Origin: Bolinopsis microptera
Lineage: Eukaryota; Ctenophora; Tentaculata; Lobata; Bolinopsidae
Direction of reading: 5' to 3'
Assembly: GCF_026151205.1 (NCBI RefSeq)
Contig: NC_087073.1
Span: forward strand, 6,283,001 to 6,347,000
DNA length: 64,000 bases
The notes beneath the pieces were generated by a model, which was given only the letters and a program-made list of their open reading frames with translations, searched no databases and was not told where the DNA came from. This document shows, piece by piece, positions 211 through 62,453 of this stretch. The translations under genes and the position numbers were made by a program. The stretch's first letter is position 1; every line of letters starts with the position of its first letter.

Positions 211-3200
211 GATGTAGTAGAGCGCCGCATTGAAGACGGTAAACTGTACACAGTAAGGTTTATAGTGAAGAAGCAACGTATCCCTACATCTTTTATGTGG
301 ATGGTCCCTGCAAAACACAAGGCCTGTTATGTTAAGGAAACTTCTGTGGTGAGTTTCAATACATTTATCAATCAATAAGTTTGACACAACTAATTAAATC
401 TTAGAAGTAAATCATTGATGAAAGGGAATACTAAAGCATTCATTCATTTATTAAATTCGCCTGTACAGTCCTTCGTTATGAATAGGTCTTCCACTACGGT
501 TCTGAATCCAGCCATTTAACCAATTCAATAGTAGCTGTGTATCGCCTCCCTGCAAATAGCCTCCTCCTCCTCACTTAAACTCTTCCCTCACAGATAGATC
601 CAGTGAACCAGGAGTGCACGATAACAACAGAGAACTTGAACTGCAGGTTTATCAGTCTGGTTATAGAGACCCTCAAGTACAAGAGTGTTAGAATGTGTGA
701 GACTCTCATGGAGAGACGAACTCGCATATCCGCCAAAATAGAGAGCATACAAAAGTTAGTATTTTATCATCAGATGAAGAGAGAACTTGATTTATTGGTA
801 TAAATTGAAAGTAAATTACCAAATGATTAATAAGTATATAATGGTGTCTGTTAATTTCATGTTTTAAACTTAACCTATAACCATATTGCCAACGGATTTA
901 ACATCTACTTCTCGTCTATTGCTCGTACTCTTAATTCAAAAGTTCAATCTTCTGTACCATCTCGTACGGTAACTGATGGCAATTTCAATAAAACGAAGTT
1001 TATACAATACCTCAAGGGCAGAGAAAGAATAGTGAACTCTTTTTTTCTCAGCCCCTGTGACGAGGAAGAGATAAGTAAAATTATTGGTAGCCTTGAAAAT
1101 GGGAAGGCAAGTGATATCTCTGTTAAAGTCTTAAAAAAGAGTGTAAATTATCTGTCTGGTCATATATCTAGATTCTTTAATTGGTTCTTGGACAATGGGG
1201 TCTTTCCAAACAAGCTTAAAACGGGCTCTATTACACCAATTTATAAAAAAGGAGACTCACGATGCCTTGATAACTATCGACCTGTTTCTACATTACCGAT
1301 ATTTGGAAAAATACTTGAGAAAATAATTTATAATAGGTTATATAATTACCTCAGTGCTATGAACGTGATTTATGATCGACAATTTGGTTTTAGAAAACAA
1401 CACTCAACATCTCATGCCGTAAACTATTCTGTCAATAAAATACTTAATGAGATTGAACAGAAAAATCATGTAATTGGAATATTTATTGATCTAAGTAAAG
1501 CATTTGACACAATTGAGCACGATAAACTCCTGCATAAACTTGAACACTATGGAGTAAGAGGTATTGCACTAAAAACTCTTGCTAGCTATCTAACAAACCG
1601 TAGCCAAGTAACTTCTTTTCAAACTGAAAAATCGGATAAGTGTTCAGTTGAGTATGGTGTACCCCAGGGGTCAGTGTTAGGACCTCTACTATTTCTGATT
1701 TATATAAATGATATTGTGAGCTCCTCAAGCTTGGCTGAATTCGTCCTGTTTGCTGATGATACAAATATTTTTGTGATAGGTAGTTCAGCACAGGAAGCTT
1801 TTGAAAAAGCTAATCATGTAATGAAACAGGTCAGTAACTATATGGAGTCTAACAAGTTACATATAAATGCAGGGAAAAGTTGTTTTATGCATTTCCAGCC
1901 AGGTTTGTCAAGAGCAACACAGACCTGTGCCAGAACACGGCCCTTTAACAGGAATCTAACGATTTTAATAGATGGCAAAAAGCTAGAAAAAGTTCAATGT
2001 ACAAAGTTTCTTGGGGTGATAATAGACGAACAGCTAAGCTGGGAACCACATCTTAATCATTTATCTTTAAAGCTGAACTCCAGTATTGTATCGATTAAGA
2101 GAATTTGCAAATTCATTCCCAAATCTGAATATTTGAAACTATACAATGCTCTTTTTATGTCACATCTTAGCTATTGTATAAGTTGCTGGGGTGGTATCCC
2201 TAAACATAAGCTGAATAAAATCTTTGCAATTCAAAAACGATGTATAAGACTGCTATTTGGTAACATTCCCAATTTTGATCATAAAGAATACTATTTAACC
2301 TGTGCACGTTCAAGAACTTATAACGAACATATGGCTAGCAAGAACTACTGTCTTGAACACACTAAACCGCTATTCACTGAGCAGAAAATTATGAACCTGG
2401 AGAATCTGCACATGTACCATACATTTATGGAACTATTCAAAATTCTTAAATTTGATGTCCCCCAGTCGATTAAAGATCTTTTCAAGTTCTGTCCTAGAAA
2501 TGAAAAACTTCGTCTGATTGTCCCATTACTGAGGTTAGATATCTCCCAACAGAACTTTTTGTACACCTCTACGAAAATTTGGAATGACCTCAGCCCCTAT
2601 GTATTTGAAATTTGTGATGCTAATAAAGATGGGATAATAATCCCGGGTTCTTCCAAGAATTCAGACTTGTCAGCCTCGTCAGGTATTATTAAATCTAACC
2701 TTAAAAAGCACTTGCTATCCCTCCAAAATCGAGATGACCCTAATACATGGTAACTACTTTATATTATATCTCAAATTCTAAATCCGGTACGGCTCTGCAC
2801 ACATGATATCTCTCTCTGCCATGAAACATGGCTAACCTTTTAAACTATAATTTAAAACCTAAACCTAAACTAAAACTCAACTGGGCTCTCCTATGTCACC
2901 AAACTAAACCAATAAGTAATTTTATATTATTATATTTTTCTATATTTGTATAACAAGTATATTGACGTAGTGGATGGTTGAGGGGGTTTCAAGCACAGGT
3001 CACTCTCAAATCTTAAAGATAAGCAGTGGCCTTCGGCACTTGAAACCTCTTCAAACCTCCCCTGATTTATTTATTATTGATATTGTTTGATTGTGCCGTA
3101 AAAATAAATATTTGTTTTATTAAAATATTTGTTTTATTATTAACGATAAAATGTTATTTTCAGTTACACGTTCGACAGATACCAGAAGAACATCGCCAAC

Positions 3201-4229: not shown

Positions 4230-7200
4230 ATGTCTAGTATGGCATCATTACGACCAACTTCCACCATCGCACGTTTGGCAAACACCCTGTCAAGATGTAA
4301 GTCAGCAGCTGCTGCAGCGCCTGCACTGGCGCCCCGCGAGAAGACCTTCCAGATCTACAGATGGGACCCAGAAAAGCCAGGAGACAAGCCTCATATGGAC
4401 ACTTACAAGGTTCGTTAATTGAAATGTATCATTATTGTTAACTTAATTATAAGCATGTAATTACTGACTTTAGCTTCACAATATATAGAAATTTATAGTA
4501 TAGTTTGTAATATAGTTTGAATCCGACTGGAATTCCAATTGCTTCACTGGACCAGATCTGAAAGAAAAACTTATTCAAAAGTAGCTGGTCGGTTTAAAAG
4601 CAACGACTTTTTGTATTGAACTAATCGTATTGTAAATTTAAATAACCTCTAGTTGAACCTGAATGAATGCGGCCCTATGGTACTGGACGCTCTGATGAAG
4701 ATAAAGAACGAGCAGGACCCAACCCTGACCTTCAGAAGATCGTGTAGAGAGGGGATATGTGGATCTTGTAGTATGAACATTGGTGGCACCAACACTCTCG
4801 CCTGTATCAGGTATAGTCACAGCGCCATTTCTTAGACATTTCTGCGGTGAATTATTCAGTTTGAAAATGGCGAATAGAAATTGTCACTTTGAACAGATGA
4901 TAACATGCGATTTTGTTTAAACGATATTTTAAAACCCATATTTTATCCCAAACTGTTACCAACAACCTCACTTAAATGTCACCCTTTTTCCAGTCGAATA
5001 GACCCTGACACAGAGAAAGCTATCAAGATCTACCCACTTCCCCACATGTACGTGGTGAAGGACCTGGTACCCGACATGACTCACTTCTTCGAGCAGTACG
5101 CCAGTGTGCAGCCTTGGTTACAGCAGGACGAGGAGATTGACTACGGAGCAAAGCAGATCTATCAGTCTGTGGATGACAGGAAGAAGCTCGACGGACTGTG
5201 AGTACTTTATATTTACTTGTTTACCAGTTAATCACTTAATTAATTTGATTCTTAGTTAAATATAATCTATACAATTATCACTGTAACAAATAATGTTATT
5301 GGCACACATACATTGTTGGTATTCGCTTAAAATATACAACATTTTACATGCAGCTAACATCGGACTATTTAAAGAAATGGATAATTCTGTTAAATAAATG
5401 TGTGCTGAAAAATACGTTAATAAATTCATAATCGCTAGTCGTATCGCCCTAGATCATTCTTGACCTTTTCAATGTATGGAATGATTCTGGTAATTTCTTC
5501 TTTGACGCATGCATTAATATTAAATCTGCATTCTACTATACAATTAACATAACACGATACCAGTGACGCTGTTTCATGTAGTGTTATCTAATTGTGTTGT
5601 TGGCAATATGTTAGACAGAACCAGATTGTTCTAGAACGTTTCACTAAATGGAAGGCGCGAAAAAGTAAATGTTGTAGTCGGTACGTGCTTTTTACGCGCG
5701 CGTCATATGATGCGCGCGCGCGTTTATCACACGCGCGCATATTAAATGATGCTATTTTGATTCGATAATGCATGGAACGTTATCTATTCCGGAATCGGTC
5801 GCTGTGAAGTCACGGAGTAAAGTTTGATGGTTAGTTGTAAAACAACGTACAATAATACTCTTTTAAATCCTAGCTGATCATTGACCACTCTTCACGCCAA
5901 ATTTTACACGAACCCTCAATTAAATACGAATGCTACCTACCGGCTACCTATTGAACCTATCTAGAGGTTTAGAAGTAGGCATCTTCACGGCCATCAGTCA
6001 TCACGCAATCTGCGGACCACCTCCTTGACTGCACCAGTCTATTATATTAATTTATCGAGTTAGGGTTTTCTGCACTGTATCCAGGAGTAGAGGGCTTGTC
6101 TGGAAGGGTGTCTAGGAAGTTTCCAAGAGATGTCTTGAAGCTTTCCAAAATCTTTTGAGTATTGACAATTTTGGGGAGAACATTCCAGAGTCTTCCAGCT
6201 CTCACTGCGAATGAGTGGTTGTAGGTGGAGCGTGCAGCGGCTGATGCTTTTTTGCCAGAATGAGAGAATGCCAGACTCCCAGTCTGGCATTCTCTCCGAA
6301 CTGTACATCTAGATCATTTGGACATATACCCTGGAGAACTTTCCACAGATGTATGATGGTGTAGCGTTCTCGGCGTCTTTGCAGGGATGTAAGTTTCAGT
6401 TCCTTCAGTCTATTCCAAAAATCGGTGTCTTTGAGCCCTATAATCCGTCTAGTGAACTAGCTAAGGTTGAGGGGGTTTAAGTTTTAATCTTACGGTGTGA
6501 GTTATAACTAACAATATATTATTGGGGACGAAATGAGAGTTTTCACTGCAAAAAAATACACAATGTATTGTCGACGTTTCGGTTACATGCCTTTGTCATA
6601 TACGAAACGATAATGACTATTTACAGCCATGTAAAGAGTAATCGTTTCATATATGACAGAGGAATGTAGCCGAAAGCTCGACAATATTTTGTTTTAGTGA
6701 GAGGAGATTCTCATTTCGTTCCCAGTAATCTATCAGGATCGACCCACTCAAGAGAGCGATAAACGAAACAAACTAAAAACTAATAGTGAATAAAAACAGC
6801 AGCATATTTGTCTTTGTTGGATTGACAATGTTTCATTGGCCACACATCGACTTGAATTTGGCTGCTAACTATTCATTCGGGCACAATCTCAGTAGAGATG
6901 TGGATATGATTAGGTACAGTAAAATGTAGTAACACTTGCACTTGTCACTTGTCAGGTATGAGTGCATCCTGTGTGCTTGCTGCTCGACATCCTGCCCTTC
7001 TTACTGGTGGAACAGTGACAAGTACCTAGGACCTGCAGTGTTGCTCCAGAGTTACAGATGGCTAGCCGACAGCCGTGATCACAAGACCAAGGTTTGTTCC
7101 TTTTCTGGTCTACATTCCCCAGTCGCTGTGACGTTCTTATCTAATAATGTTATGTTTTTTGGAACATTACACAATTTGATAGTAATTTTAACTTTTAAGC

Positions 7201-7486: not shown

Positions 7487-9553
7487 GCAGTGACCCTCGC
7501 CCTATAGCTGAAGAGAACATCTTTACTTGAACTGTGCTAGTGACCCCAAAAAGTATTGTGGATTTAAATTAGAATAGTGCTACAACGTTGACCCTGTTGG
7601 CCTTTCATAACCCAAATGTGTTATCATCGGTAGATAAATTTGGCGGTAGATAGATGGATCAAAAAGGCTGTAGAAAAGTGCGATCTATGATCACTATTAG
7701 TTAATAGTTTAGAGTTCCTTCCGGTATAGGTAATTTTAAGTTAACAATTTAACCTACACAACTTACAAGTGAATTCCCGTGATAATAGATAGCACTTTAA
7801 TATCCTTTTCAATCCATCCATCCAACACCCGAGAATCTGCTGATGATATCACAAATGGGTAAAATTGGAATTTATTTTGTATTTATTGACAATTTTTAAT
7901 TGGGATAGATTATTGAATGGCTGATTATGTGACCCTTTCATAATGGCGTGCTGCCAACTGCATGCAAGCATTTGTTAATCCACCATCTAGCTAGGATTGT
8001 AAGATATGAGGTATTCGACTTTTGTTCAGTAAAATAACATAATACTAATAGTGTAAATTTGATAAATCAATTGAACTTTAACATTTCCCTAAGTTGGACT
8101 TGCTTTCTTGTTTATCGACTTAGGGGTCGTTCACATATTAAGTAATCAATATTTTAGCAATTTTTACCCCCCCCCCCCCCCTCCGTAATCAACCGTAATC
8201 AAGACCCAACCCTCCCCCCCCCCCCCCCCCCCCCGGCCCCCCTCCTGACAGCAATATTACGTAATCATGGCCTGACCGCCCCCCCTCCCCTCGACTTTTT
8301 TCCCTAGAAAACACTTTTGTCTACGTTTCATGCTACCCTGATCATGCTATCATGATGAGCCGAAATCATTGTTATATGACATACGGCCAAGCATCTTCTA
8401 AACTACTTACTATTATAGCCGGATATTCGATCAATTTCTAAATTTTATCACTATCAGAGTGAAATCAACCGTAAGCATTTGAAACCCCCCCCCCCCCCCC
8501 CCCCCCTCGGCTTTACGTAATATGTGAACGACCCCATATGGAGGCTCAGGTGATTTTGTGGATTTATACGGTATCAGGCTCTGATAACATTGATATGAAC
8601 AGAGAGTACTGTTGAGTAATATAATAACACCACAGTGATCTAATGAAATGTCACGTTACCTAACCTGCTATCCAGATATCCTGCAATCTATCTTGTGAAG
8701 ACTGATCTTAACAACTCCAGCTCAGGTTTTTAGCTATATGACTATTTTACTGTATTCAGAAAACTCAATCTTCTTTCCATACGTGTTCTTGGTTATTTAA
8801 TTAATTGGTTGATTAATTTGAGGGATATTTTAGTTAGTGTCATTTTAGAATACGACAGCCGGCACGTAATTTTAAAGCGGTAAGATTAAGAGACTCTCGT
8901 GGAGTATATCAGATTTCAGTGGACAGAAGTAGAGGATCAAAACAACTTGTTCTACATATAGTCAATCTTGTGAAGACTCTACGCTAAGCCTATTTTATCA
9001 AGTTAGTAAATGTTTTAGTGTTCAGACTACTCAATCTTCCTTCTGTGAATCGTTATTAATTAGCACAATTACATTATTGTAAACTACAGCTGCCATGAAT
9101 ATTTCATTTAAAAAGCATAATTTGTTGTTGTGAAACCAGCTTTTTTTGCCGGTACCCTTAAGGGATTTCAAGTCAACTTATAAAGTCAAAAAATTCACAC
9201 ACCAAACAATATCTCACTCCCATCGGGCAGAAATTAGCCTTTAATAAATCATAGTAAGTAAATGTATAGTCTATAGAATATGCGTATGAAAACTTAGCCT
9301 AGTTAAATAAAACCTACTGGTGAGACTTCCTTCACGATTGCTATTCAGCAATGTATGGTCCAAAAATCATCACGGGAAATTATATGAGTAACAATCCCGT
9401 TGGCCATACTTCATCAGATTTCAAAAAGTCTGCACTTCGAGTTGCTATACCAAATTTGAAATTCAGCGAAATCACGCACTTTATTCTAAACTCTTAAACT
9501 CAGCCCAATTGCGCACAAATCAACAAAGAAGATAACAGATTAATCTGAGTTAA
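7487..9553. other. SDHB 3' region and intergenic DNA
   Basis: The stretch holds the SDHB 3' UTR, one MITE (8123-8535) and AT-rich DNA without a recognisable gene. On the minus strand an AATAAA-type signal near 9476-9486 could serve the ORF1-like gene upstream of it. Confidence 0.6.
8123..8535. mobile_element. MITE, family with GGGGTCGTTCACATATTA ends, copy 1
   Basis: The ends are GGGGTCGTTCACATATTA and its reverse complement TAATATGTGAACGACCCC, with a GTAAT motif just inside. The interior has three long C runs (around 8167-8182, 8212-8234 and 8486-8506) and no ORF. Two more copies lie at 22493 and 45038. The autonomous partner is not in the window. Confidence 0.85.
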
Positions 9554-10402
9554 TTATCTCTTATATGCATTCACTACACTCAAAACTTTTCCGTCGTTAA
9601 TATAGTGATACTTCGACGGTTCAGCAGATATTTTCTCCTTTAATTGAGCTACAAGTTTTTTATGTGTTGCTTGTTCCTCTCGGTTTCTATCTGGAGCAAC
9701 GAACCAGCTGTGGTAGGTTGTACAGAGGGACTTTTTCAAATGATTTGCTCTCGAGAGAGCCTCTTTCACTGATTCGTTACTATTCATAGTCACTTTGATT
9801 GGCCTCGGCCTACCATCCTCCCGTTTCTTCACACCGATACGATTAGCAGCTACAATATCAGAGTGGTTATTGTGTTGCAAAATCTTGTCCAGTACTTCAT
9901 CTGCTAAATCAGCGGGGCACGTGGAGTAATCCTCCGGGACTCCGTGGACGATGAAGTTCCTGCTCCGAGCGTCGTCTTGAACAGCAGACTGTACTGCTTT
10001 CTTCACTGTCTTCAAAGTTGGAGCTTTATTGTCGCAGTTTTTCCTGGCAATTTCGCTCCATGTCTTCATCTCCGTTTTAATCTCAGTTTGAACAGTCTCC
10101 TGCACAGATTTTAGCTGCTCTCTCTGCACTTTTATCAGTTCTGACTTAACATAATCGATGGTACCGGCTGCAGATTTGCATAAAACAATGTTACTGATCA
10201 GTGATTTGGTTAAGTTCTCAATGAGTTTTGCCATCGTGTCCTTGTTACATTTCATGAGTGCTGCATGATTCAGTTCCTCAAATTTTTCAATATTGACAGC
10301 GTTCTTCGCAGTATTTGCAGTATTGACAGCTTTTAAAACTTTTTCCACTGATGAATGCAAAGCTTCCTCTTGTGTGTGTAGATCTGCTACGTTGAATTCC
10401 AT
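9554..10402 (-). CDS. LINE ORF1-type nucleic-acid-binding protein, without ORF2
   Basis: 282 residues from the ATG at 10402; an upstream in-frame extension reaches 10435 but has no ATG. The N-terminal half is rich in Lys, Glu and Gln with heptad-like spacing, suggesting a coiled coil. The central part has the RRM-like ORF1 signature: RNFIVHGVPE, then ANRIGVKKR and RPRPIKVTM. The C-terminal part (APDRNREEQATHKKLV, then HYINDGKVLSV) is typical of invertebrate LINE ORF1 proteins. Such proteins bind element RNA as trimers. No reverse transcriptase follows on the minus strand below 9554, so this is not an ordinary 5'-truncated LINE. It could be a HAL1-like ORF1-only element, a 3'-deleted LINE or a co-opted gene. 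The frame is intact. Confidence 0.75.
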   Translation of the reverse strand: MEFNVADLHTQEEALHSSVEKVLKAVNTANTAKNAVNIEKFEELNHAALMKCNKDTMAKLIENLTKSLISNIVLCKSAAGTIDYVKSELIKVQREQLKSVQETVQTEIKTEMKTWSEIARKNCDNKAPTLKTVKKAVQSAVQDDARSRNFIVHGVPEDYSTCPADLADEVLDKILQHNNHSDIVAANRIGVKKREDGRPRPIKVTMNSNESVKEALSRANHLKKSLCTTYHSWFVAPDRNREEQATHKKLVAQLKEKISAEPSKYHYINDGKVLSVVNAYKR

Positions 10403-11184
10403 TGTCAATTGTACAACAAACGGGCTGTACAGCACGGTGCTGTGTTAAAGTTGATAAAACAGCTGATAAGAGACGATTTAAACCGTTGCATAAGCTAGAT
10501 AAAATGATTACTAAGAAAATAACATGGAGAATTTCAGGATTTGGTACACAGAAAGAGAGGATCAATCCAACTCAATTTTAACAGTCTCTCAACACCAGGT
10601 ACCAAATTGAAATACTTGTTTGTGTCATTTTGATAAGGGGGCATACGCCAAAAGTTTACTGACCATCTAGCGCACCGTTTCCTCACCAACAATTTTTGTT
10701 GAGGATTCCCATTTTTGTAATCGAGCATTTCCTTGTATCTACCAGATGATGAGGTGGTGGTATCTGGTAGTTATGATTATCCCTATTATTCAGCTCTCCT
10801 TCATGACTCATTCTTCATCCTAAATTAAAATAATAATTTAAAATATTCCGCCCCGCACATTTGTAGTCCATGACATCTTATCAAAAATTATCTATCTTGC
10901 TCGCAATAATTGACAGGATAATATATTTTAGGTACCAGATTCCGGTCAAAGATTAAGCTGCGTTTCTGATATTTTCGTACCAAAGATCAACATTTATCTT
11001 CAATATTGAGGTATGTACGTAATACTCAACCCCTCACAACTCCCCTTAATCGAAATGAAACTCGTACTTTATCCTGAAAGCTGAACACCTGGTGCCTCAT
11101 CTCATTTACAAATTATGACTACTACATATAGCTTTAAACTTTTAACAGTTTCATTTATCTCAGAATATCTTAACTTACTGAACA
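10403..11184. other. Spacer between the ORF1-like gene and the NERD-helicase gene
   Basis: No convincing exon is visible. A small inverted repeat, CTACCAGAT/ATCTGGTAG, lies at about 10739-10771. The two flanking genes are divergent, so this 0.78-kb spacer should hold both promoters. No clear TATA box was identified. Confidence 0.5.
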
Positions 11185-13308
11185 ATGGACAACTATGTAA
11201 AGAACGGAAAAGAAATCTTCCTCAAGTTCTGCACCTCTGATGACAAACGACCTACTATGCTGCCGAGAGCTCCAGATCAGTCGTATATAGACAGGTACCC
11301 GGAGAGTAGTGACTTCAGAGACGAACGACAACGTCAGTCTGATTATGAGGCTGAAGTCATGGTGTGTAGGGCTTTAGAGAAATTACCGGACGATAAGATC
11401 ATCGTTCTTCATAACTTTGAATACACGCACCATCAATATCGTTTGTGTGATCAGAGTCATTTGTGGAACAAGAAGAAGTGCAAAGGGTGCAAGAACCCGT
11501 CGAATAAAGAAGGAGAATGTGATTTTTTAATTTTATGTTCAGGCTCCATCGTTATAATCGAAGTTAAGAACATGACTCACATTTACAATGCGGTCGACAA
11601 GGAAAAACACTTCAAGGCATTATCTGGTACGTTCACAAAATCAGTTGAGCAGAGAAAGAAGATAGAATCTCTGATTCAATGTATAGAAAAAGACACAACT
11701 ATCCGTCAGTTCACTGCGTATCCTTATTTCAGTAAACAATTTAAAGGACATTTCCAGGCTAGTGAAGATACAAAACTTCAGCTAAGCGATTCAGAATTAT
11801 CAACTGTAATATTTTATGAGGACATTATAGACTTATCAAGTTCTGGTTCTTGGTGGAATAACAACGCAACAGTAGCTCAAGATACAATAATTAATTGTGA
11901 TGCCTTTCAAAAGGTTAGGAATATGTTACTTGCTATCTGGGCTACCGATAAAAACTACGATCAATCGAAATGTAGTTTAGCAAACTGCATATTAAACATT
12001 GATGAACGGCTCAAATCAGGAAAATTTACTTTTTTACCAAAAAAAGGGAAGAATCGTGCACAGAATCCTGGAGTTGTAACAGCTCCTGATGTTATAAAAA
12101 ACTATGTTAAAGTGGAAAACTTGACAGTAGAACAAAGTGAAGCGTTCGAATCAAGCGAGAATCTGTTGTGGATTAACGGACCTGCAGGGGCGGGGAAAAG
12201 TGTAATACTTTGCGGTAGAATAATCCAACTGGTACAACTTAATGAGGACAATAAAGTTGTGTTATTCAAATTCGGCGGTGATGGTAACAACAGTCAGCTT
12301 TATCAGCGTGCATTAGAAGAAGCTAGTGTAGAATATCAAGAGACCAGCATGTCTGACGTCACTGCCACAGAACTACTATCAGAACTATCAGAAAGTAAGT
12401 GTAAAGTTATCATTGTAGAGATAAGAGATTATCAGACATTCCATCAGAAGATACAGAAGATACAGAAGTTAACAGATACAATCAGTGCTGTGACCAACTG
12501 TCACATATTCATTGACGATATACAGGAGTTATTGTATTCCTGCTCAACTAAGGAGTGTAGTGTACTGATGGACAAGTTGTTATCTTTAGAGTGCACTGTC
12601 AGGGTTGCATGTGACCTGGCACAGGGTTATTGGTTATGGATCGGACGAGGTGAAGGATTCATTGACATACTACTAAGAATGATATCTGACAAACTATCAT
12701 CCACTCAGTTGGTACGTTTATCAATGAGCCTTAGAAATACATGTGATTTATCTGACATCTTATGTATAATACGAGAACAATTTAGAGAATTTCATTTTTC
12801 AGAAATACCTGATGTATCACTATCAGATATGATTTTACCTACACAATTACAAGGACATTTTATACACGGTCCATTGACTGTTATACATGTTTTTAATGAT
12901 TACAATGTTGATAATATTAAACGTGTAATTGATAATGAGCTTGATAGATTATGTGATGAATTAAATTATTCTGATATAGGTATAGTACATACTAATGTCA
13001 CTAGTAGTTTAATATCAATAGTTAAGGACAGTGTTAATATGAGATGTGAAAACACTGATAGTAAGATTGCAGTGTGTCGCAGTGGGGATAGTTATTCTGC
13101 TCAGTGGCCAGCTGTAATAGCACTGCATAAGTCGGGGTACACTGAGGACGTGGAGGACCTGACTGAACTTTACTTAGCGTTATCCAGAGCACGTGTTTAC
13201 TGCTCTGTTGTTATATTCCCATGCGAGGAAATCACATTAGACCGATATTCTCATATTTTACGTTTGTTAGATAAACTGAGTAACTTTGCTCGTATCATAC
13301 GGTATTAG
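11185..13308 (+). CDS. NERD nuclease - SF1-like helicase protein, single exon
   Basis: 707 residues in one uninterrupted exon. An N-terminal NERD (nuclease-related) domain at about 40-190 shows the PD-(D/E)xK pattern: D113 in GECDFLIL, then E126 and K128 in IIEVKN. A cysteine pair just before it (KKCKGCKN, near 100) is unusual. A helicase/ATPase part follows: Walker A GPAGAGKS at 332-339, Walker B-like FIDDIQE with D444/D445, SLRNT (SF1 motif IV-like), and YLALSRAR (motif VI-like) near the C-terminus. NERD fused to UvrD/DUF2075-type helicases is common in bacteria, where it is thought to act on DNA. In animals the role is not established. The start follows a clear ATG after an AT-rich leader; an AATAAA lies near 13646. 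The lack of introns next to intron-rich genes suggests retrocopy or transfer origin. Confidence 0.85.
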   Translation: MDNYVKNGKEIFLKFCTSDDKRPTMLPRAPDQSYIDRYPESSDFRDERQRQSDYEAEVMVCRALEKLPDDKIIVLHNFEYTHHQYRLCDQSHLWNKKKCKGCKNPSNKEGECDFLILCSGSIVIIEVKNMTHIYNAVDKEKHFKALSGTFTKSVEQRKKIESLIQCIEKDTTIRQFTAYPYFSKQFKGHFQASEDTKLQLSDSELSTVIFYEDIIDLSSSGSWWNNNATVAQDTIINCDAFQKVRNMLLAIWATDKNYDQSKCSLANCILNIDERLKSGKFTFLPKKGKNRAQNPGVVTAPDVIKNYVKVENLTVEQSEAFESSENLLWINGPAGAGKSVILCGRIIQLVQLNEDNKVVLFKFGGDGNNSQLYQRALEEASVEYQETSMSDVTATELLSELSESKCKVIIVEIRDYQTFHQKIQKIQKLTDTISAVTNCHIFIDDIQELLYSCSTKECSVLMDKLLSLECTVRVACDLAQGYWLWIGRGEGFIDILLRMISDKLSSTQLVRLSMSLRNTCDLSDILCIIREQFREFHFSEIPDVSLSDMILPTQLQGHFIHGPLTVIHVFNDYNVDNIKRVIDNELDRLCDELNYSDIGIVHTNVTSSLISIVKDSVNMRCENTDSKIAVCRSGDSYSAQWPAVIALHKSGYTEDVEDLTELYLALSRARVYCSVVIFPCEEITLDRYSHILRLLDKLSNFARIIRY

Positions 13309-13485: not shown

Positions 13486-13728
13486 ATTTATACAAATATA
13501 TTAAGCTAGCAATTATGACTTGCAGATAATTTCACCCACTAACTTAAGTATTACTATTATTTAATTGTGTTTCCTCTCTGAGTTATTGTTAAATATTACA
13601 GTGCTTTGTATCGAAAAGTTTTACACAATAATATGAATGGGCCAGAATAAACATAAAATTAACAAAGTGATTACAAAGTGATAACATTCGTCATTCGTGG
13701 TTTGGAAACAGACATATTACCCCAAATA

Positions 13729-14270
13729 CCTTAAGAATGACAAATTTAGTCTACCATAAATTTAGTCAAACTTTTTACTAAAATTGTTGCAAACCAAATT
13801 TTATGTGACTTAATTTTTCGGCGACTAATTTTGAAGTAGACCAACATTTTAGTAGAGCATATATGTATTAAATTTTGTTGAGCTTACATTCTTTATTATA
13901 TGTTTATGATAAACAGTTAAATATCGCTAACTGTACACAAGATCTTAGTGATACAGACTCTGGATCTGATGTAATTGAAATTCCTGAGTAATGCATTGAA
14001 AATTAATCTGTAATGCTCAGACGTGTGCTCACTGCTCATTGCTGAATCGATAGATAGCAGTTTATTTTAGAAATTGATTGTTTTATTTCTTAATATGCGA
14101 AATTGGAAAAAAACTAGCTTTATAATGGAAAAATCAAATGAATGGAATGGAAAATGATCTCGAAAAGTCAAAAAATGCGACTAAAATTGTTGTAGACTAA
14201 AAATTTGCGAAATTTGTGCCCAAAATTATGGTAACCAAAATTTATGGTGACCCAAATTTGTTGGCCCTAA
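13729..14270 (+). mobile_element. DNA transposon remnant, CCTTAAG...CTAAGG family, copy 1
   Basis: The ends start CCTTAAGAATGACAAATTTA and finish TTTGTTGGCCCTAA, loosely inverted. Internal short motifs of the AAATTTAGTC type repeat in both orientations. A coding tail ending SGSDVIEIPE then stop lies near 13945-13990 and may be the end of a transposase. A longer copy lies at 43235-43896. The superfamily is not recognised. Confidence 0.7.
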
Positions 14271-17320: not shown

Positions 17321-17544
17321 AATCAATTACAGAGGGTGTGGCCTCTTTTTCACTGAAAAGACGCCATCAGATTTCATTGCATTCTGGGACCAATTTTGGT
17401 GTGATTTAAAGTATCCTACAAATTGGTGTTTACTGTTTCGACTTTTGTAAAATCACTGTAACAATATAATCTGTATTCTTATAGTTTCAACCATAATAGT
17501 GAAATAGAGGGGCTGGCCAATAGCCACACCCTCTGTAATTGATT
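17321..17544. mobile_element. Small MITE with 22-bp TIR, within the duplication
   Basis: The left end AATCAATTACAGAGGGTGTG is mirrored at the right end near 17522-17544. The element is 224 bp with no ORF. The duplicate copy is at 18557-18780 and differs by very few bases. Confidence 0.8.
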
Positions 17545-18179
17545 TAAGTCAGCGAAACTTTCAGAAATTTGTGTGTAATTCGGAGATAAATTAAACAAGT
17601 TGTTATCGGCCACCATGTGTAAACGGAATGTTCTAGCAGACTGTATAATACTATAACATACATTTTCTTACACACACATAATCTAATCTCTAGAATGTTG
17701 CTATGATATCAATGGCAATGTTTTGATACTGTGTATTATCATGATTATGCCTTACAGGCCGATCTTCCGATGGAGTTTCGGTTGCCATGGCAACACATCA
17801 ATATGATAAAGAATTTGTAAACGCAGTCACAACTCTGTCGTGTACGGTGTGAGCGGTTATTTTATGATAGGTAACATCTACTTTTTCAGCATTTGCGGGA
17901 TGACCAGTTCACACGTATATTTTCGCAGACACAACTTCGCATAAAATTATATCCAATTATTCTATAACCAATTATCTACACGGACTTCTGTCTAAATATG
18001 AATGAAATCGAGAAAACCAAATATTATATGTTTCATCCTGAAGTGCTGAGTTCTCAGGCAGTAAAATCATGATCCTGATAGATATCGAAGTCTCCTTAAA
18101 TGATTGTCTCTGCTGCTTAATATATCTGGATTGTCGTTGGGAGGCGATGCAGATTTGTTTACTTTTAAGGGGGAGGTTC

Positions 18180-18377
18180 TGCTCAGCAGGAGAAAGAGGT
18201 GATGCACATTTTGTATTTGTCTGACATGTAGGACTTGAGCCACGTTTCCGTAAGTGCAATAAACGGTAACGAGTGGTTTTTGGATTTCTCCTGAATAAGA
18301 GCTGAGATTTTTGGCACTTCCCATATACTCGCACTTGATGCACAGGATTCATGGACTGGACATTTAAGACGAGGCAT
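18180..18377 (-). mobile_element. LINE endonuclease N-terminal fragment (duplicate 1)
   Basis: The minus strand encodes KISALIQEKSKNH and then LPFIALTETWLKSYMSD, the start of an apurinic-type LINE endonuclease. The frame is lost after about 45 residues. No reverse transcriptase follows. Confidence 0.72.
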
Positions 18378-18556
18378 GAGGAATAACGGGCACGTGCAGT
18401 GTATCCTCTGAGGCGGTAGGAACTGCTGGTAGTGGTATAGTGGGTAGTATATATATATTACTCATGCAACTAAGATAAATTGAGTATAAATACTCAATTT
18501 ATCTTAGTTTAAGTTGCAAGTTATATAACTCATTTTCTAAAGGTCTCGTAAACTTT

Positions 18557-18780
18557 AATCAATTACAGAGAGTGTGGCCTCTTTTTCACTGAAAAGACGC
18601 CATCAGATTTCATTGCATTCTGGGACCAATTTTGGTGTGATTTAAAGTATCCTACAAATTGGTGTTTACTGTTTCGACTTTTGTAAAATCACTGTAACAA
18701 TATAATCTGTATTCTTATAGTTTCAACCATAATAGTGAAATAGAGGGGCTGGCCAATAGCCACACCCTCTGTAATTGATT
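18557..18780. mobile_element. Second copy of the 22-bp-TIR MITE
   Basis: It arose by the segmental duplication, not by transposition, because the flanks match those of the copy at 17321 exactly. Confidence 0.8.
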
Positions 18781-19415
18781 TAAGTCAGCGAAACTTTCAG
18801 AAATTTGTGTGTAATTCGGAGATAAATTAAACAAGTTGTTATCGGCCACCATGTGTAAACGGAATGTTCTAGCAGACTGTATAATACTATAACATACATT
18901 TTCTTACACACACATAATCTAATCTCTGGAATGTTGCTATGATATCAATGGCAATGTTTTGATACTGTGTATTATCATGATTATGCCTTACAGGCCGATC
19001 TTCCGATGGAGTTTCGGTTGCCATGGCAACACATCAATATGATAAAGAATTTGTAAACGCAGTCACAACTCTGTCGTGTACACTGTACGGTGCGAGCGGT
19101 TATTTTATGATAGGTAACATCTACTTTTTCAGCATTTGCGGGATGACCAGTTCACACGTATATTTTCGCAGACACAACTTCGCATAAAATTATATCCAAT
19201 TATTCTATAACCAATTATCTACACGGACTTCTGTCTAAATATGAATGAAATCGAGAAAACCAAATATTATATGTTTCATCCTGAAGTGCTGAGTTCTCAG
19301 GCAGTAAAATCATGATCCTGATAGATATCGAAGTCTCCTTAAATGATTGTCTCTGCTGCTTAATATATCTGGATTGTCGTTGGGAGGCGATGCAGATTTG
19401 TTTACTTTTAAGGGG

Positions 19416-19830
19416 GAGGTTCTGCTCAGCAGGAGAAAGAGGTGATGCACATTTTGTATTTGTCTGACATGTAGGACTTGAGCCACGTTTCCGTAAGTGC
19501 AATAAACGGTAACGAGTGGTTTTTGGATTTCTCCTGAATAAGAGCTGAGATTTTTGGCACTTCCCATATACTCGCACTTGATGCACTAGGATTCATGGAC
19601 TGGACATTTAAGACGAGGCATGAGGAATAACGGGCACGTGCAGTGTATCCTCTGAGGCGGTAGGAACTGCTGGTAGTGGTATGGTGGGAGCGCTGTTCCT
19701 GGCTGAAGAGGTGGATGTGGTCTGGGGTAGTGGTAGGGCATTTGAGTTTGAGGGAGGCTGGACCGGTGGACGACTATTTCTGATAGGAGTCCGATCCTGG
19801 TTTGCATCGTTTCCAACAGTCTCCGTAACT
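19416..19830 (-). mobile_element. LINE endonuclease fragment (duplicate 2) with more 5' sequence
   Basis: It has the same endonuclease start as at 18180-18377, but this copy keeps about 150 extra bases upstream (to ~19830) that encode a Pro-rich stretch. It therefore represents the original junction, and the copy at 18 kb is cut by the duplication border. Confidence 0.68.
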
Positions 19831-40700: not shown

Positions 40701-43234
40701 GTAGTACCTAAAGTTCGTGGATAGAAAAAACTTTAACCTGGCCTGGTGTCCTTGCTGCCTGCACAAGAGCAATTCTAACTGCACATCTAAATTTTTGTGA
40801 ACAAACTGATATGAATCCTATTTGCACAAAATTGTATGTTATCTGCACACCAAACCTTTCTCGAGGCATACTAAAGTGACTGTCATAATATACTGAATAA
40901 AATAAACCAGCTCAATGAAAAATTATCTTGCTAAAAGTTTCATTCAGGCTGGTCAGTGTTATAGTAATGAGGACGAAAGAGACAGTGGTTAGTTAAAAAA
41001 GAAAGAGACACGTTGAAGCTTGTAGACGTAGTTCAATAAACATGTACACAGTAGAGATATAGATATATAGAGACGTGGCCGTGGTGATGACTGTGATCAG
41101 TAGCAGCTCCTGATTTGCCTGAATGGAATGTACTCAAAGGGAGGCTATATTGAACAAATTATCTCCTCCCACACTCGCCAGCTCATACAAATTAATCTTC
41201 ATAACTACAGTGTAATTATTTTAGATTGTCGGTATTGTTTGGTGAGCATTGGGTGAACTATCCTTGAATGGACATGCTACAGAATGGTAAGGTTAGGTTG
41301 GAAACAGCGCGCTGTTTGCAATTTGGGAGACTAATGACTCAATACCTGCTGCAGCATATTTCAATTTGTCTTTAATTCCTGTTTAATTCACCTGTTCAAT
41401 ACGTGCCAACTACTTGGCAACTCATCAGACTGTAATTAATTTCCCCAGACTAAAGAAAGCGCAGACTAAAAGAAGTGGTTATAAATGGCACGTTCTCATG
41501 TTCTTTTAATGAAATTGGCACAAACTACAAGCAACTACGAGGAGAGACACAGAGAGAGAGCTGACGACACTAGTTACAGAAAATATAACCACAAGTAATC
41601 CTTTGTCAAGTGAGAAACACTCTTGCGAGGTTGACTACTTTATTGTTTACTGGGCTAATTACTAATTTATCACTTAGATAGGGACTACTTCAATGGTAGA
41701 GGGTTGTCTTGATAATTATACAGGGTAAGCAAGTCCACAGCCCTCTGTAAGGGGGTACGGGAAGCTTTTTAAATTGTGCGAGAGGGCGTGCCCCTGATCA
41801 ACTGAATTTGAATTGCAAGACGGGCTAAAGATTATATGTTTGGAATTTAAGGACCATCACATTCCGCAACTCAAACACGTTTAGTTGGCACTGTGCCAAT
41901 GGCACATCTCCAATCTCCTGATTAACAAGGCAGAAAATAGTGGGGCAAAGAAATCGGTCAGTTTTATACTCGTAATTTTAATTAAACTTTAATTTGAACA
42001 TTGTTTAAGCCAAATTAGTTAAATTGCACCATTTGTTGTTGCTTTTTATTATTTTTTAGTACTGTCCTTATTAATTCAATAAGGACACGTACAATAAGGT
42101 TAGAGGATAGGGTAAATCGAGAGATGGCGACATCGTCAATAAGCTGGTAATTTAAACTAAATAATTAAACCTGCATTTCGTCAATTTCAAAGTGAATGTA
42201 ATCAGAATTTAACATTAATATTGGGGCACCCCAAAACAAAGTTTAAATATTAATACGATACCCCAGATATAATGACTTCCATGACCAAGATTACCTTGAT
42301 TGGGTCACGGTTGAACGGTAAAATAGGTCTGTGATTATAAAACGATCACAATATAGAAAATCTAATAAATTACTAAACATTTTCGAAATTAAAAGAGTTA
42401 CAAAACTTCAGTTCGACTCAGATCACTGCACTTTGGCAAGATACCCTCAGTTTTTTGTAAGAATTGTATCTCTTCAGCCGGATACCAGTTTTCAATATTA
42501 CCAGTTTAAAAAACCAATTTTTCGACAGTTTTGTTTTTGCAAAAGCTTTTCTTGAGACCAATTTATAAAGGAAAATGAAACTCTGCCCTGCAACTTATAT
42601 GTGCGGTGTCAACTCCAAAATACGGGAAGTTTAAATTATGATATTTATGACACCATCTCAAATTTTCAAATTTTGTGGTTCGAAGTTTCAGCATAAATGA
42701 GGGTAGGACGTAGTCAAAATTTGATATGACTCATTTGGTAGATTTAAACAGATGCTCGTCAATAAAAGCTAGTAAGTTGCAGCACTCATGCAGGGAATTT
42801 CCGGAGAATAGATTACGATTTCCGGAATACACTTGCACTATGAAATAGCAAATATTTTAAAAACTCAAGGTTTTTCGATTTAAAAAAGGCTTTTTTTCTC
42901 CAGGTTCAATAATGCAGACTTACTTATGTCACGCACAAATGCAGACACTTCGATACTAAGAAACATCGCGACTACATAAATCATATTATAGGACGCGTCC
43001 GGAGTCCGGACGTGGTCATTTTGATTAAGCAGCATTGTTAAAGGAGTCATAGTAATAGTAATAGTCATCAGTCACGCAGGATGGTTCTTTTATCTTTCCT
43101 ATTGATACAATGAATGTCAAATGTTGGAGTAGTTCGCTGTTTATTATTATTTATGATACAATGAAGTTTGTCTAGACTACTAGTAAAGTGTACTTTGCAC
43201 AAAATCTCTGGAAGGCGTAGACGACATCTTACTA

Positions 43235-43896
43235 CCTTAAGAACAACAAATTTAGTCTACCATAAATTTAGTCAAACTTTTTACTAAAATTGTTGTAAAC
43301 CAAATTTCATGAGACTAAATTTTTCGGCGACTAATTTTAAAGCAGACCAAAATTTCAGTAGATCAAATATGACATGAATATTATTAAGCTAACATTGTTT
43401 ATAATTAATATATGACATCACCGTTCCTACTGCACAAAACCGTACCAAAGTCCTATTGCATTTAAACTCAAAGGGTTAGAACTCCTCTTGGACAAATTTT
43501 TAATCGATCCATCCCAATGCTTGCTCTGTTGAAACGGCTGAAGGATCATAATAATCATATTGACATGAACTACGTCGTTCCGACAAAAATGGTAAAGTCG
43601 AAAAAGGATGAAAAAGAAACTGAACAGTTTACTGAAGAACTTAGTGATACAGAGTCACAAACTCTGGATCTGATGTTATTGAAATTCCTGAGTAATGCAT
43701 TGCAGCTTAATTTGTAATTTTCGGCGGGGTAGACTAAATTTGTAAGGTAAATGAAATGGTAAATGGTCTCGAAAAGTCGAAAAATGTGACTAAAATTGTT
43801 GTAGACTAAAAATTTGCGAAATTTATGACTAAAATTATGGTAACCAAAATTATGGTAACCAATTTTTATTGTGAACCAAATTTATTGGCCCTAAGG
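43235..43896 (+). mobile_element. DNA transposon remnant, CCTTAAG...CTAAGG family, copy 2
   Basis: It starts CCTTAAGAACAACAAATTTA and ends TTATTGGCCCTAAGG, with TA on both flanks. At 662 bp it is longer than copy 1 and keeps more of a coding tail (near 43465-43690: RTPLGQIFNRSIPMLALL, then a Lys/Glu-rich stretch and ELSDTES). The frame then shifts relative to copy 1. A transposase end is likely; the superfamily is unknown. Confidence 0.7.
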
Positions 43897-45568: not shown

Positions 45569-48500
45569 CTGAGCAAGTTTGAGCGTGTCCTCAATGTCCC
45601 CTCTAGATGCGCCCTCATCAATACTGAGCCCTACTGCACCGTACTGCTCAGCTACAGAGTGATAGGGTGTCTTCTTGTTTAGCGTGGACCCCACATCACT
45701 ACCCAACATGGTACTCTGATCCCGCTCTATCTGACCCCATGATCCGTTGTTACCTAGTTAGTAGTTAGGGTTGTTACTTAGTTGTTGTTACCTAGTTCGG
45801 GTTGTTACTTAGTTGTTGTTACATAGTTAAGGTTGTTACTTAGTTGTTGTTACCTAGTTAGGGTTGTTACTTAGTTGTTGTTACCTAGTTAGGGTTGTTA
45901 CTTAGTTGTTGTTACCTAGTTAGGGTTGTTGCTTAGTTGTTGTTACTTAGTTAGGGTTGTTACCTAGTTAGGGTTGTTGCTTAGTTGTTGTTACCTAGTT
46001 AGGGTTGTTACTTAGTTGTTGTTACATAGTTAGGGTTGTTACTTAGTTGTTGTTACCTAGTTAGGGTTGTTACTTAGTTGTTGTTACTTAGTTAGGGTTG
46101 TTACTTAGTTGTTGTTACCTAGTTAGGGTTGTTACTTAGTTGTTGTTACATAGTTAGGGTTGTTACTTAGTTGTTGTTACCTAGTTAGGGTTGTTGCTTA
46201 GTTGTTGTTACTTAGTTAAGGTTGTTACTTAGGTGTTGTTACTTAGTTAGGGTTGTTACTTAGTTGTTGTTACCTAGTTAGGGTTGTTGCTTAGTTGTTG
46301 TTACTTAGTTAGGGTTGTTACTTAGTTGTTGTTACCTAGTTAGGGTTGTTGCTTAGTTGTTGTTACCTAGTTAGGGTTGTTACTTAGTTGTTGTTACATA
46401 GTTAGGGTTGTTACTTAGTTGTTGTTACCTAGTTAGGGTTGTTACTTAGTTAATAGTTGTTGTTACCTAGTTAGACTTGTTACTTAGTTGTTGTTACCTA
46501 GTTAGGGTTGTTGCTTAGTTGTTGTTACATAGTTAGGGTTATTACTTAGTTGTTGTTACCTAGTTAGGGTTGTTACTTAGTTGTTGTTACCTAGTTAGAG
46601 TTGTTACTAAATACTTGAGTGGACAATAACATTGTAACACTGGTCATTGTGAACTATCAAATTTAGAGAAGGCCATTTTAACATGAAACTAACCAACGAT
46701 AGCGATGAAGGGGAGATCGTGTGTGACAGCACGTTCAATTTCAGCTATACTGTAAGTACAACTACCGTCACCCCATAGCACCCAAACCTCCGAGTTAGGC
46801 TTCACCGCCTTCACGCCTGGTAAGTGGCACATTGGAAATTAATGGAGAAGAAATCATAATAGATATGTTGAAGTTATAATGGTAAAAAGCAGTTACAGGC
46901 CAGACAGTCGGACCACAATTGATGAAAATAACTTACCCAGTGCAAAGCCTCCTCCTACACCGAGAGTACCGTAAGCTCCAGGATCTAACCAACTCAGTGG
47001 TTTCTTAGGTCTTAGTATTCGGGATGCTGTTCCAACAAAGTCACCACCGTCCCCTACAAAATAAGTTAGATATTATTAGGAATAAATACGCGCGTGAGAC
47101 GACTCATTGTCGATATATAACATTTCCAGTTCACTCTGTTCATCATGACAAGTTGAAATGTGCGATACAGTTGACAAGACGTGTAGAACATAGAAAAGAT
47201 GTAATTAATCGCAAAAGTGGAAATAGTTTAATCAAACTTTGAATTCAACATTCTAGAAGGTGCTATAAGAATCAGTTTTATCGACAACACTCCCTAAACA
47301 ACCTGCTCCGGTGCTCCCATACTTATCAATAAAAACATCATTGTAAATTAAAAACTAAAAAGCAATCACACTGGTCGAGTTTAACATACCTATAAGAATA
47401 GATTTGTCGGTTAAGACAGTGTCCAGGATTTCAAATAGTTGGACGGGGTTGATGCCTCCTTCCAGTTCCTTACTGCTTTCTGACCTGTGCAGATTATAAT
47501 ATATTAGTGATCACTGGATCTAGCTACAGGTGGGAACCATATTTGAACGAGGCAAGAACGAGGCAAGAAAACCGATTTGCAAACTCTAAAAAATGTTTTT
47601 ACTTTCCCTTCGCGACTCAAATTAAACAATAGACAAAAACAGAGAAAAATAAATTCAATAAATAAGCTCCAAGGTCCAGTAAAAAGCACACTATAAAATA
47701 ACTCACAACATCTTGGCCTCCTCGCCCTTCTCCCGCTCTGCAAGGTGCAGTAACCAGTCAGGGCAGGTAGCTGTACCAACCCTCGTCACTATACACTCCA
47801 GAATTTCTCCCTCCATCTGGAGCTTCGCTGACCAGAATATTCGGTGGTTCAGGGAGAGCTGGTTGTCGGATCGGTTTATAGCCACCACCTGGGCAGAGGG
47901 TTTAGAGTACCATGGTTACTAAACAGACAAGGCATGGTTACTATGGTTACCATGGTATATATAATATATATTTTTGCTATATAATATAGCAAAAATTTGA
48001 CTTTCGGACGAATTTAACTATAAATAATCGAAATTTCGCCGAAATAATGTTGTCCGAATAAAGAGCTTATATTGTCATTAAGCATAATAGTCTACAGACT
48101 ACAGTTACACTGGTACGGCTTGATCTGAGATTGTCGGGTATTAGGAGTATTGCTTTATTGCTTTTGAAACCGGGCTTAGACTAGCTTTATCACTGAAACA
48201 GTCTAGATACCAAGTTGATTATAACATACTTTTTTCATGTTATAAATCATGTAGTATCTAAACAAACCATCAACTCAACAAATTATAATAAGATTTCGTA
48301 CGTACCAGAGCTTTTCTACCTAAAGATCTGCCATAATCCAGCCTAAAATCACAAACTGCTCCTGCCAATATGATCAGATCTGCTTCTTTGAGGGCAGCTT
48401 TTCTGGCTTGTCTGAAGAAGAGCGGATCATCCGCACCCAGCAACCCACGTGACATTCCCCCTGTCACAATGTGTTTATCAGATTTTCTAACGGTGTAGTA

Positions 48501-51400: not shown

Positions 51401-52935
51401 CTACATGCCCCTTTCACGGCGATACTCCTTCCATTCCTTGTAGTTCGCCATGAAATCAGTTTCTGGTGTAATAATCTCCTCCTCAAGTGCAGGATTGTAA
51501 CCATAATATCTCTCATTCATAATCTCGTGGAGAGGCTCAGTATGATCGATAGCATTTGCTATACAGTCTGGTATACCTGCTCCGCTGTAGGAGTTCCCTA
51601 TCAGTGACAACCGCAGGTTATCCTCCTTGATCAGTCTGAACAAGTGCTTCACTCTGTTTCTGTGTCCCACCGTGTAATGTGGTATACATTTCTCTAGAAT
51701 ATCCACGTGACATTGACTTGGTTCTGCGGTTATTCCTAAGTATTTTTTAATTGTGTCCAGAGCCATAGTTCTGATGAGGTCCCGATCACATGTTTTAGGG
51801 TCGCCAAAATATTTCTCAAACCATTCACCACCAATCATTAAAGATAAACGATTTGATTTGTATTCTGTTGTGTCGTTCTCAGGGAAGATTACTGAATCGA
51901 ATATGATCCCCAAAACTGCTGGGTTTTCGTAGGAAGGTATCAAACAACCAAACGCTTTAAGATCGAATGAAATATCCTTGAATTCTAACGAAACATGAGC
52001 AACGTCTACAAAATTGATTTCTGATAAGCGTTTGCCGATTTCCTCGTCCGGCAGTGCATTAGCGAGTGCAAAAGATGGAATAGCCGAAACTACATGGTCG
52101 AAGTGTCGAGCTTTTCCATCCTTTACTGTAACTGTCACTTCAGGGTTTCTGACTGAAATGTGTTCAACAGGAGAGTTTTCATATATATCAACATTTGAAC
52201 TGTCTCTTAAAATATTGAGGATGGCTCGAGGTAGCTGTTCCATCCCATGTTTGAAATTTAACATTCGCCACCCATCTAATTTAGCTTTCATTGCAAACTC
52301 ATTTTTATTCCCAACAAACTCAGGCACGTTTACCTTGTTATGGTACATGGATTTGATAATGCTCCTCCGTTCATATTCACCCTTAACAAGCTGAGGAAAC
52401 ATAGCTGACACACCCAACGTCCTGGAATCGCTAGCAGAAATACCTCTACACATCGGGTCTGAGATCAAATCTGCTATTTCCCGTCCAAACCGCCTCGTGA
52501 AGAACATGTGTACTGACTCATCATTAGCAGAATACCGTCCTTTAGAGACAAGGTCCTTCACAGCGGCTTTAACAAACGCGCTCATTTTGTCGTGTTTGAT
52601 TGCAGTTGTCAGACTGGATGGTAACGCCACTAACTTACCCTCTAACCCTATATATCTGACCTTTGCAGCAGGATGATCCTTCGTCACACTCAAAACCTGA
52701 GAGTTCAGAGCAATCTCGTCCACTAGTTCTAGCAGCCTGATACCGTTATTTCCCACACACCTCAGTGAATGTGGTCCCAGCTCAAACTTAGCTCCGTTTT
52801 CAGTTCGTCTAGTCTGGATCCAGCCCCCAAATCGAGAGAGGCCTCGTAAAGAGAGACATGAGCAGCGGGGTTCAGGGAGAGATTGTAGGCTGCTACCAGT
52901 CCTGCAATCCCCCCGCCGAGAACTGATATCTTCAT
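51401..52935 (-). CDS. PPOX: Protoporphyrinogen oxidase, single exon, with an apparent 1-base indel
   Basis: The minus strand starts MKISVLGGGIAGLVAAYNL at 52935, the FAD-binding GxGxxG fold (G7, G9, G12). It continues to a stop at 51401 after one frame change. PPOX converts protoporphyrinogen IX to protoporphyrin IX at the inner mitochondrial membrane. Matches to animal PPOX include GWIQTRR, KFELGPHSLR, DHPAAKVRYIG, DPMCRGISA, FGRE, VVSAIPSFALA, PAVLGIIFDSV and IPHYTVGH. The frame break falls at a run of five C (plus strand 52824-52828); six would keep one frame and give about 511 residues. It may be an assembly error or a real mutation. The C-terminus is about 40 residues longer than the human enzyme. 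Absence of introns is unusual (human PPOX has about 13 exons) and suggests a retrocopy. Confidence 0.9.

Positions 52936-56137: not shown

Positions 56138-62453
<6,316 letters not shown>

Follow-up and report, generated by a model that had tools for sequence, protein, structure and literature searches.

A NERD nuclease and an SF1-type motor encoded by one gene in animal-like DNA of the ctenophore Bolinopsis microptera

The pairing of a NERD nuclease with a helicase was met elsewhere in this analysis only in bacteria and archaea, in which it is associated with antiviral defence, and the question raised by this locus is what such a gene is doing in the DNA of a ctenophore: whether it belongs to the animal, where it came from and what its protein may do. 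The gene lies in a stretch of 64,000 nucleotides of Bolinopsis microptera (RefSeq assembly GCF_026151205.1, contig NC_087073.1, positions 6,283,001 to 6,347,000 of the forward strand), which as a whole is called the window, and the gene product is called the window protein. A sequence-only reading had described a single-exon fusion of a NERD nuclease with an SF1-like helicase in an animal genome, being either an animal-specific family or an acquired gene. The observation of a nuclease-helicase fusion gene is confirmed here and the interpretation is partly supported; the gene is genuine, its frame is intact, and in an animal it is out of the ordinary.

The open reading frame list of the window gives the gene as one intact frame starting with ATG (Table 1), and the chance of an open run of 708 codons is about 1e-21 at the stop frequency of the window. 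The start codon stands in a favourable context, ACAATGG, with an in-frame TGA two codons 5′ of it. The claimed lack of introns holds for the coding region, whereas in the 5′ untranslated region acceptor-like tracts ending at 11148 and 11163 leave an intron possible. The motifs that had been named (D113, E126, K128, GPAGAGKS at 332–339, FIDDIQE at 442–448, YLALSRAR at 663–670 near the C-terminus and KKCKGCKN at 97–104 before the nuclease core) were all found at their places, and LTVEQ, CDLAQ and SLRNT were added to them.

Table 1. Coordinates of the gene and its features in the window (residue numbers of the window protein in brackets)
Feature	Position	Strand	Basis
Coding frame, NERD nuclease and SF1-type motor, intron-free, 707 aa	11185..13308	+	Frame, Pfam, tailored profiles
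NERD (PD-(D/E)xK) domain (53–167)	11341..11685	+	Pfam NERD; profile of prokaryotic NERD halves
C88-x3-H92-x6-C99-x2-C102, in an insertion of about 19 residues ahead of the nuclease core	11446..11490	+	Spacing
Predicted nuclease core D113 ... E126-x-K128	11521..11568	+	Alignment with 87 prokaryotic relatives
Q motif LTVEQ (313–317)	12121..12135	+	Q317 aligned with Q in 87/87 sampled relatives
Walker A GPAGAGKS (332–339)	12178..12201	+	Sequence, alignment with relatives
FIDDIQE (442–448), motif II in the preferred register	12508..12528	+	hmmalign, spacing, glutamate count
CDLAQ (476–480), motif III in the preferred register	12610..12624	+	hmmalign, alignment A1
SLRNT (515–519), motif IV	12727..12741	+	R517 conserved; S515 against N in 84/87 sampled relatives
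YSAQ (637–640), altered motif V	13093..13104	+	Relatives have KGLE
YLALSRAR (663–670), motif VI with R668	13171..13194	+	Sequence, alignment, segment profile
AATAAA, possible polyadenylation signal, 338 bases past the stop codon	13646..13651	+	Consensus match alone

The nuclease half was identified by HMM search, in which Pfam NERD (PF08378) passed its cut-off (35.9 against 22.1 bits) and a profile of prokaryotic NERD halves gave 30.1 bits, the best of 2000 shuffles reaching 8.1. The comparison set consisted of 87 prokaryotic NERD-SF1 fusions, namely 8 plasmid proteins and 79 genome loci; for the latter, the best 80 were kept out of 430 confirmed relatives and one of them was then set aside as incomplete. 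In these sampled relatives the catalytic columns hold D in 86/87, E in 87/87 and K in 86/87, and E111 and F114 are also the residues of 85/87 and 83/87, so that the NERD claim stands with D113, E126 and K128 kept. The distance from E57 to D113 is 56 residues in the window protein and 34–43 (median 37.5) in 30 bacterial relatives. The cysteines and histidine in this longer stretch may form a small metal site, C88, H92, C99 and C102 being the putative ligands; residues 86–100 have pLDDT below 50 in the model described further on. That the cysteine pair is atypical of the family was borne out by a search for CxxC in the N-terminal 110 residues of each of the 87 fusions, where a single one (L071) has it, sited on the ExK catalytic strand. 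Cysteine makes up 3.5% of the window protein against a mean of 1.4% and a maximum of 2.8% in the same relatives.

The motor half is less easily named. Pfam UvrD (PF00580) and SLFN-g3_helicase (PF09848, which we take to be the former DUF2075) remained below their cut-offs, with 16.2 against 23 and 16.8 against 24 bits; an NCBIfam scan gave nothing near cut-off, and PHROGs matches were confined to the Walker A region, the best being PhoH-like at E 4.9e-5. The tailored profiles gave clearer results: a full-length profile of the 87 fusions scored the window protein at 47.8 bits, no shuffle out of 1000 exceeding 5.3, and the first full-length profile, of 54 prokaryotic NERD-SF1 proteins chosen by regular expression, at 38.5 bits (best of 1000 shuffles 4.7). 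When the profile was divided into thirds, the region of motifs I–III gave 25.3 bits and that after motif III 14.1 bits beside the NERD score given above, and none of 2000 shuffles reached any of the three. The SF1-like helicase of the sequence-only reading is thus supported by the tailored prokaryotic NERD-SF1 profile and not by Pfam. The window protein and the prokaryotic fusions are collinear over the whole length with both domains matched, which gives the fusion a prokaryotic precedent, while hhalign of the relatives' alignment A2 with the window protein spanned just residues 54–356. Judged by the profiles, the window protein is homologous from end to end to prokaryotic NERD-helicases.

The individual motifs were placed by hmmalign, which sets Q317, K338, D444, D477, R517 and R668 in the Q motif and motifs I, II, III, IV and VI. 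The register of motifs II and III varies with the method. Alignment A1 gave the 444/477 register, as did hmmalign and the first of the full-length profiles, and alignment A4 gave 412/444; among 40 random subsets aligned by MAFFT --auto, 444/477 came up in 7, 411–412/444 in 21 and other registers in 12, and nine MAFFT runs in other modes gave 1, 5 and 3 respectively. FIDDIQE was placed on motif III by L-INS-i with all 88 sequences, by a segment profile and by most MAFFT runs, whereas hmmalign and alignment A1 put CDLAQ there. In the alternative register motifs III and IV stand 73 residues apart, against 26–42 in the relatives, a range taken from alignment A5 of 30 relatives, itself picked for 444/477. 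We prefer 444/477, which has the spacing on its side as well as hmmalign and the first of the full-length profiles, but do not regard it as certain. In this register D445 replaces the glutamate which all 87 sampled relatives have in the D-E-x-Q of motif II, and in the other the motif II strand is VIIVEIRDY, which misses the aspartate. In place of KGLE the altered motif V lacks the glycine that is invariant in the relatives (87/87), and an alternative motif V at G651 would lie 17 residues before R668 against 26–38 in the relatives. As motifs II and V are off-family in both registers, it is safer to conclude that the motor has changed than that it is an ordinary helicase.

Structure prediction had been proposed as a check. 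The AlphaFold2 model built with 30 relatives has a mean pLDDT of 66.8 and a pTM of 0.52, with many blocks at 80–90 and 175 of the 707 residues below 50, and the order of strands and helices matches NERD and RecA-like domains by eye. A model from the single sequence reached a pLDDT of 36.4 and was discarded. Foldseek against the PDB placed SF1 helicases first, with SLFN14 (E 6.2e-11), SLFN11 (8.5e-10) and Dna2 (2.9e-9) at the top and Ighmbp2 and Upf1 also among the nearest solved folds (E below 1e-8), but TM was about 0.3 throughout these and SF2 helicases followed within the top 50. Many helicases were matched among viral models, the best being a putative SDE3 helicase (1.8e-12). Because the 30 relatives had been picked for one motif register and the alignment was bacterial apart from the window protein, the model and the Foldseek matches count as consistency and not as independent proof.

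Of the less probable alternatives to the reading preferred below, three carry some weight, in falling order a repair enzyme, a STAND-type switch and the cargo of a mobile element. Under the first, the protein would be an active, processive SF1 helicase-nuclease of repair or replication, Dna2- or AddA-like, whose motif V has changed with its function kept. The retained Q motif, Walker A and motifs IV and VI and the high rank of Dna2 among the fold matches fit such an enzyme; the change of KGLE to YSAQ and the replacement by aspartate or the loss, according to the register, of the motif II glutamate common to every sampled relative do not, and we consider it unlikely, though it is the strongest of the three.

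The second alternative takes the C-terminal half for a STAND-type NTPase of the nephrocystin-3 N-terminal or NACHT-like kind, so that the NERD effector would sit on a signalling switch. It arises from Pfam NPHP3_N (PF24883, STAND NTPase), which passes its cut-off on residues 322–465 (29.4 against 24.8 bits) with weaker matches to nSTAND1 and nSTAND_NTPase5, and FIDDIQE is, we assume, similar to a STAND Walker B. STAND NTPases carry a winged helix after the NTPase and are not known to have SF1 motifs III–VI. In the window protein SF1 motifs IV and VI were found, and CDLAQ, SLRNT and YLALSRAR come after FIDDIQE in SF1 order and with a spacing within or near the range of the relatives. The score of the C-terminal third with SF1 relatives also lies far from that of its shuffles (14.1 bits; best of 2000, 3.9), and the Foldseek ranking puts SF1 helicases first in a model that is not independent of SF1 relatives. 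On this balance a STAND-type switch appears rather improbable.

Whether the gene belongs to animal DNA was judged from its neighbours. The protoporphyrinogen oxidase (PPOX) gene at 51404–52954 (−), whose coding region is mostly one uninterrupted stretch, has its closest matches in 3nks and 4ivo (3e-75), well ahead of 2ivd (6e-27) as the next kind; we take the first two to be human and the last to be myxobacterial. The SDHB piece at 4893–5198 has its best matches in the mitochondrial SDHB of 3vr8 and 1yq3, presumably worm and chicken. The Fer2_3 domain is divided over 4653–4832 and 4893–5198, the second part being below cut-off, and a TPP enzyme gene and a Hydrolase_4 gene of the window likewise come in separate pieces. 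The animal genome of the sequence-only reading is therefore upheld in the sense that PPOX and SDHB are closest to animal proteins, no animal-only gene having been identified in the window. The gene is flanked by repeats at 8122–8535 and 13727–14263, which lie 2.65 kb 5′ and 419 bases 3′ of it and have further copies in the window. Contamination is unlikely because PPOX and SDHB are animal-like and the flanking repeats recur in the window, and by these sequence comparisons the gene is part of animal-like DNA. Its GC3 is 0.344 against 0.445 in the host gene pieces, and its codon use correlates with theirs at r 0.62, hardly more than the 0.56 and 0.52 of the retroelement frames; neither codon use nor GC3 decides anything on the origin of the gene.

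The window holds further repeated and element-like sequences. The repeat copies at 13727–14263 and 43233–43871 are 83–89% alike in three pieces, the two halves of a duplication (17482–18457 and 18718–19592) share several translated frames at full identity, and tandem arrays were found at 58827–60480 (326-base unit, 5.1 copies, 97% matches) and 45770–46608 (31-base unit, 26.8 copies, 91% matches). The reverse transcriptase frame at 1032–2753 (+) matches Pfam RVT_1 with 135.9 bits. On the opposite strand a frame of 293 residues at 9554–10435 (−) adjoins the gene; it has no Pfam family above cut-off and resembles, we presume, a retroelement ORF1. An open frame of 500 residues at 62500–63999 (+) reaches the end of the window with no Pfam match at E ≤ 0.01 and is perhaps, as we suppose, a Penelope-like element.

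It is against this repeat-rich background, with a reverse transcriptase frame, an ORF1-like frame and repeats on both sides, that the third alternative arises, in which the gene would be the cargo or a core gene of a mobile element and not a settled host gene. A second copy of the gene was not found within the 64-kb window, and the best inverted and direct repeats of the flanks score 11 and 10, while scores up to 15 and 14 occurred in 100 shuffles each. We give this alternative slightly less weight than the STAND-type switch.

Where the gene came from was addressed by searches for relatives. Four phylum scans (394, 398, 294 and 292 genomes, together 1,378) gave 10 genomes that matched part of the window protein at E ≤ 0.01, most strongly at E 2.8e-5 over residues 323–427, and none with a two-domain match. 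In 10 further genomes, each with a NERD-helicase locus, there was one match, at E 0.35; as genomes with known loci thus went mostly unmatched, the search misses genuine NERD-helicases that are remote and excludes close relatives within the sampled genomes. No direct relative was found in the viral collection, none at E ≤ 1 in phages or plasmids, and 16 pattern matches in the genome contigs collection yielded no confirmed relative. The SF1 part alone gave two matches at E 5–6. A plasmid match to the NERD part alone (E 0.6, 46% of the query) was rejected, the frames there being un-NERD-like by eye.

That the gene came from bacteria only recently, or is a bacterial contaminant of the assembly, could be suspected from the intron-free coding region, the prokaryotic company of this domain pairing and a GC3 below that of the host gene pieces. 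The 1,388 genomes, those of the phylum scans without a two-domain match included, show no close prokaryotic relative, which argues against a recent transfer, as do the collections of plasmids, phages, viruses and genomes, in which nothing matched at the limits used; the cysteine content above the maximum of the sampled relatives and the nearby repeats, which recur in the window, point the same way. A recent bacterial donor is accordingly judged unlikely from the searches, and this explanation, contamination included, is the least probable of those considered. In a tree with the 87 prokaryotic fusions the gene could not be placed, its branch being at least 4.3 substitutions per site long, and it may be native or anciently acquired. 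Among the open papers on NERD that were listed, no title or abstract opening mentions an animal NERD-helicase, and uncharacterised animal database entries may well exist; NERD itself is reported from a eukaryote, in bean genes (PMC9197503).

The prokaryotic NERD-SF1 fusions (PADLOC RTasNERD-Hel and C3a187, "NERD+UvrD") share with the window protein the domain order, the nuclease residues, the Q motif, Walker A and motifs IV and VI, at 14–20% identity. They differ in the stretch from NERD to motor (139–167 residues, against 191 in the window protein), and the window protein has the cysteine-bearing insertion and does not keep motif V or the glutamate of motif II. In PADLOC the window protein left both RTasNERD-Hel and C3a187 unmatched, its sole match being mad8 (E 0.0007), while 7 of 8 plasmid relatives scanned match RTasNERD-Hel and all 8 match C3a187; the relevance of these models is that all eight plasmid-borne relatives match models of candidate defence proteins. 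One of the plasmid genes, from Arcobacter (L008:2842–4710), is flanked by cas6-type and csx20 CRISPR genes.

Other systems also couple the two activities. Schlafens of group III (SLFN11, SLFN14), the best fold matches, are animal proteins in which an SF1 domain comes after the nuclease, and a mainly bacterial profile matched SLFN11 (E 7e-29) and GajB (6e-14) in the PDB. The Schlafen nuclease is of a different fold from NERD, and the Schlafen-type (AlbA) nuclease is not among the 14 Pfam families that the window protein matched at E up to 1; it has NERD instead. Gabija GajB and Hachiman likewise couple a helicase to a nuclease. The nuclease and helicase of Gabija are separate chains, as those of Hachiman are reported to be, unlike the single chain of the window protein. 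Bacterial Nhi shares the single chain with it, being described as a single-gene, anti-phage nuclease-helicase tied to phage SSB (PMC12904381); the PADLOC Nhi model did not match the window protein at E ≤ 1. NERD is given for "Mokosh type I, Nhi-like" in PMC10952713.

The nuclease residues of the window protein are intact, its Q motif, Walker A and motifs IV and VI are recognisable, and its motifs II and V are altered. A kept nuclease beside an altered motor suggests, by analogy with these systems, that the nuclease is gated and the protein a sensor of abnormal nucleic acid. The reading which we favour, with somewhat more confidence than doubt, is a single-chain animal NERD nuclease-SF1 protein, the SF1 half of which is a nucleic-acid-gated sensor, probably in cell-autonomous defence. 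The SF1 half would bind ATP and nucleic acid, its motor being weak or non-processive; as a sensor it would restrain the nuclease and then free it, or position it, on an abnormal substrate, which may be viral DNA, replicating DNA or RNA. Such gating would be as in bacterial Nhi or Hachiman and the vertebrate Schlafens, and the targets of defence would be viruses or mobile elements. Action on foreign or replicating DNA, which had been proposed, is likewise what we infer from the comparison, cell-autonomous defence appearing the likeliest role and DNA repair the second; an immune function is to be taken as a lead, argued from relatives only.

A bolder form of the favoured reading, which we put forward only tentatively and hold to be less probable than not, is that the protein is an animal innate-immune effector built on the bacterial anti-phage NERD-helicase plan, its helicase now serving as a sensor of ATP and nucleic acid. 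It would then be independent of the Schlafens and a second "nuclease plus SF1" solution. The window protein would offer a single-chain system in which sensor-gated control of a nuclease can be tested, and if the immune reading is true it would add one more case to the repertoire common to prokaryotic and animal antiviral proteins.
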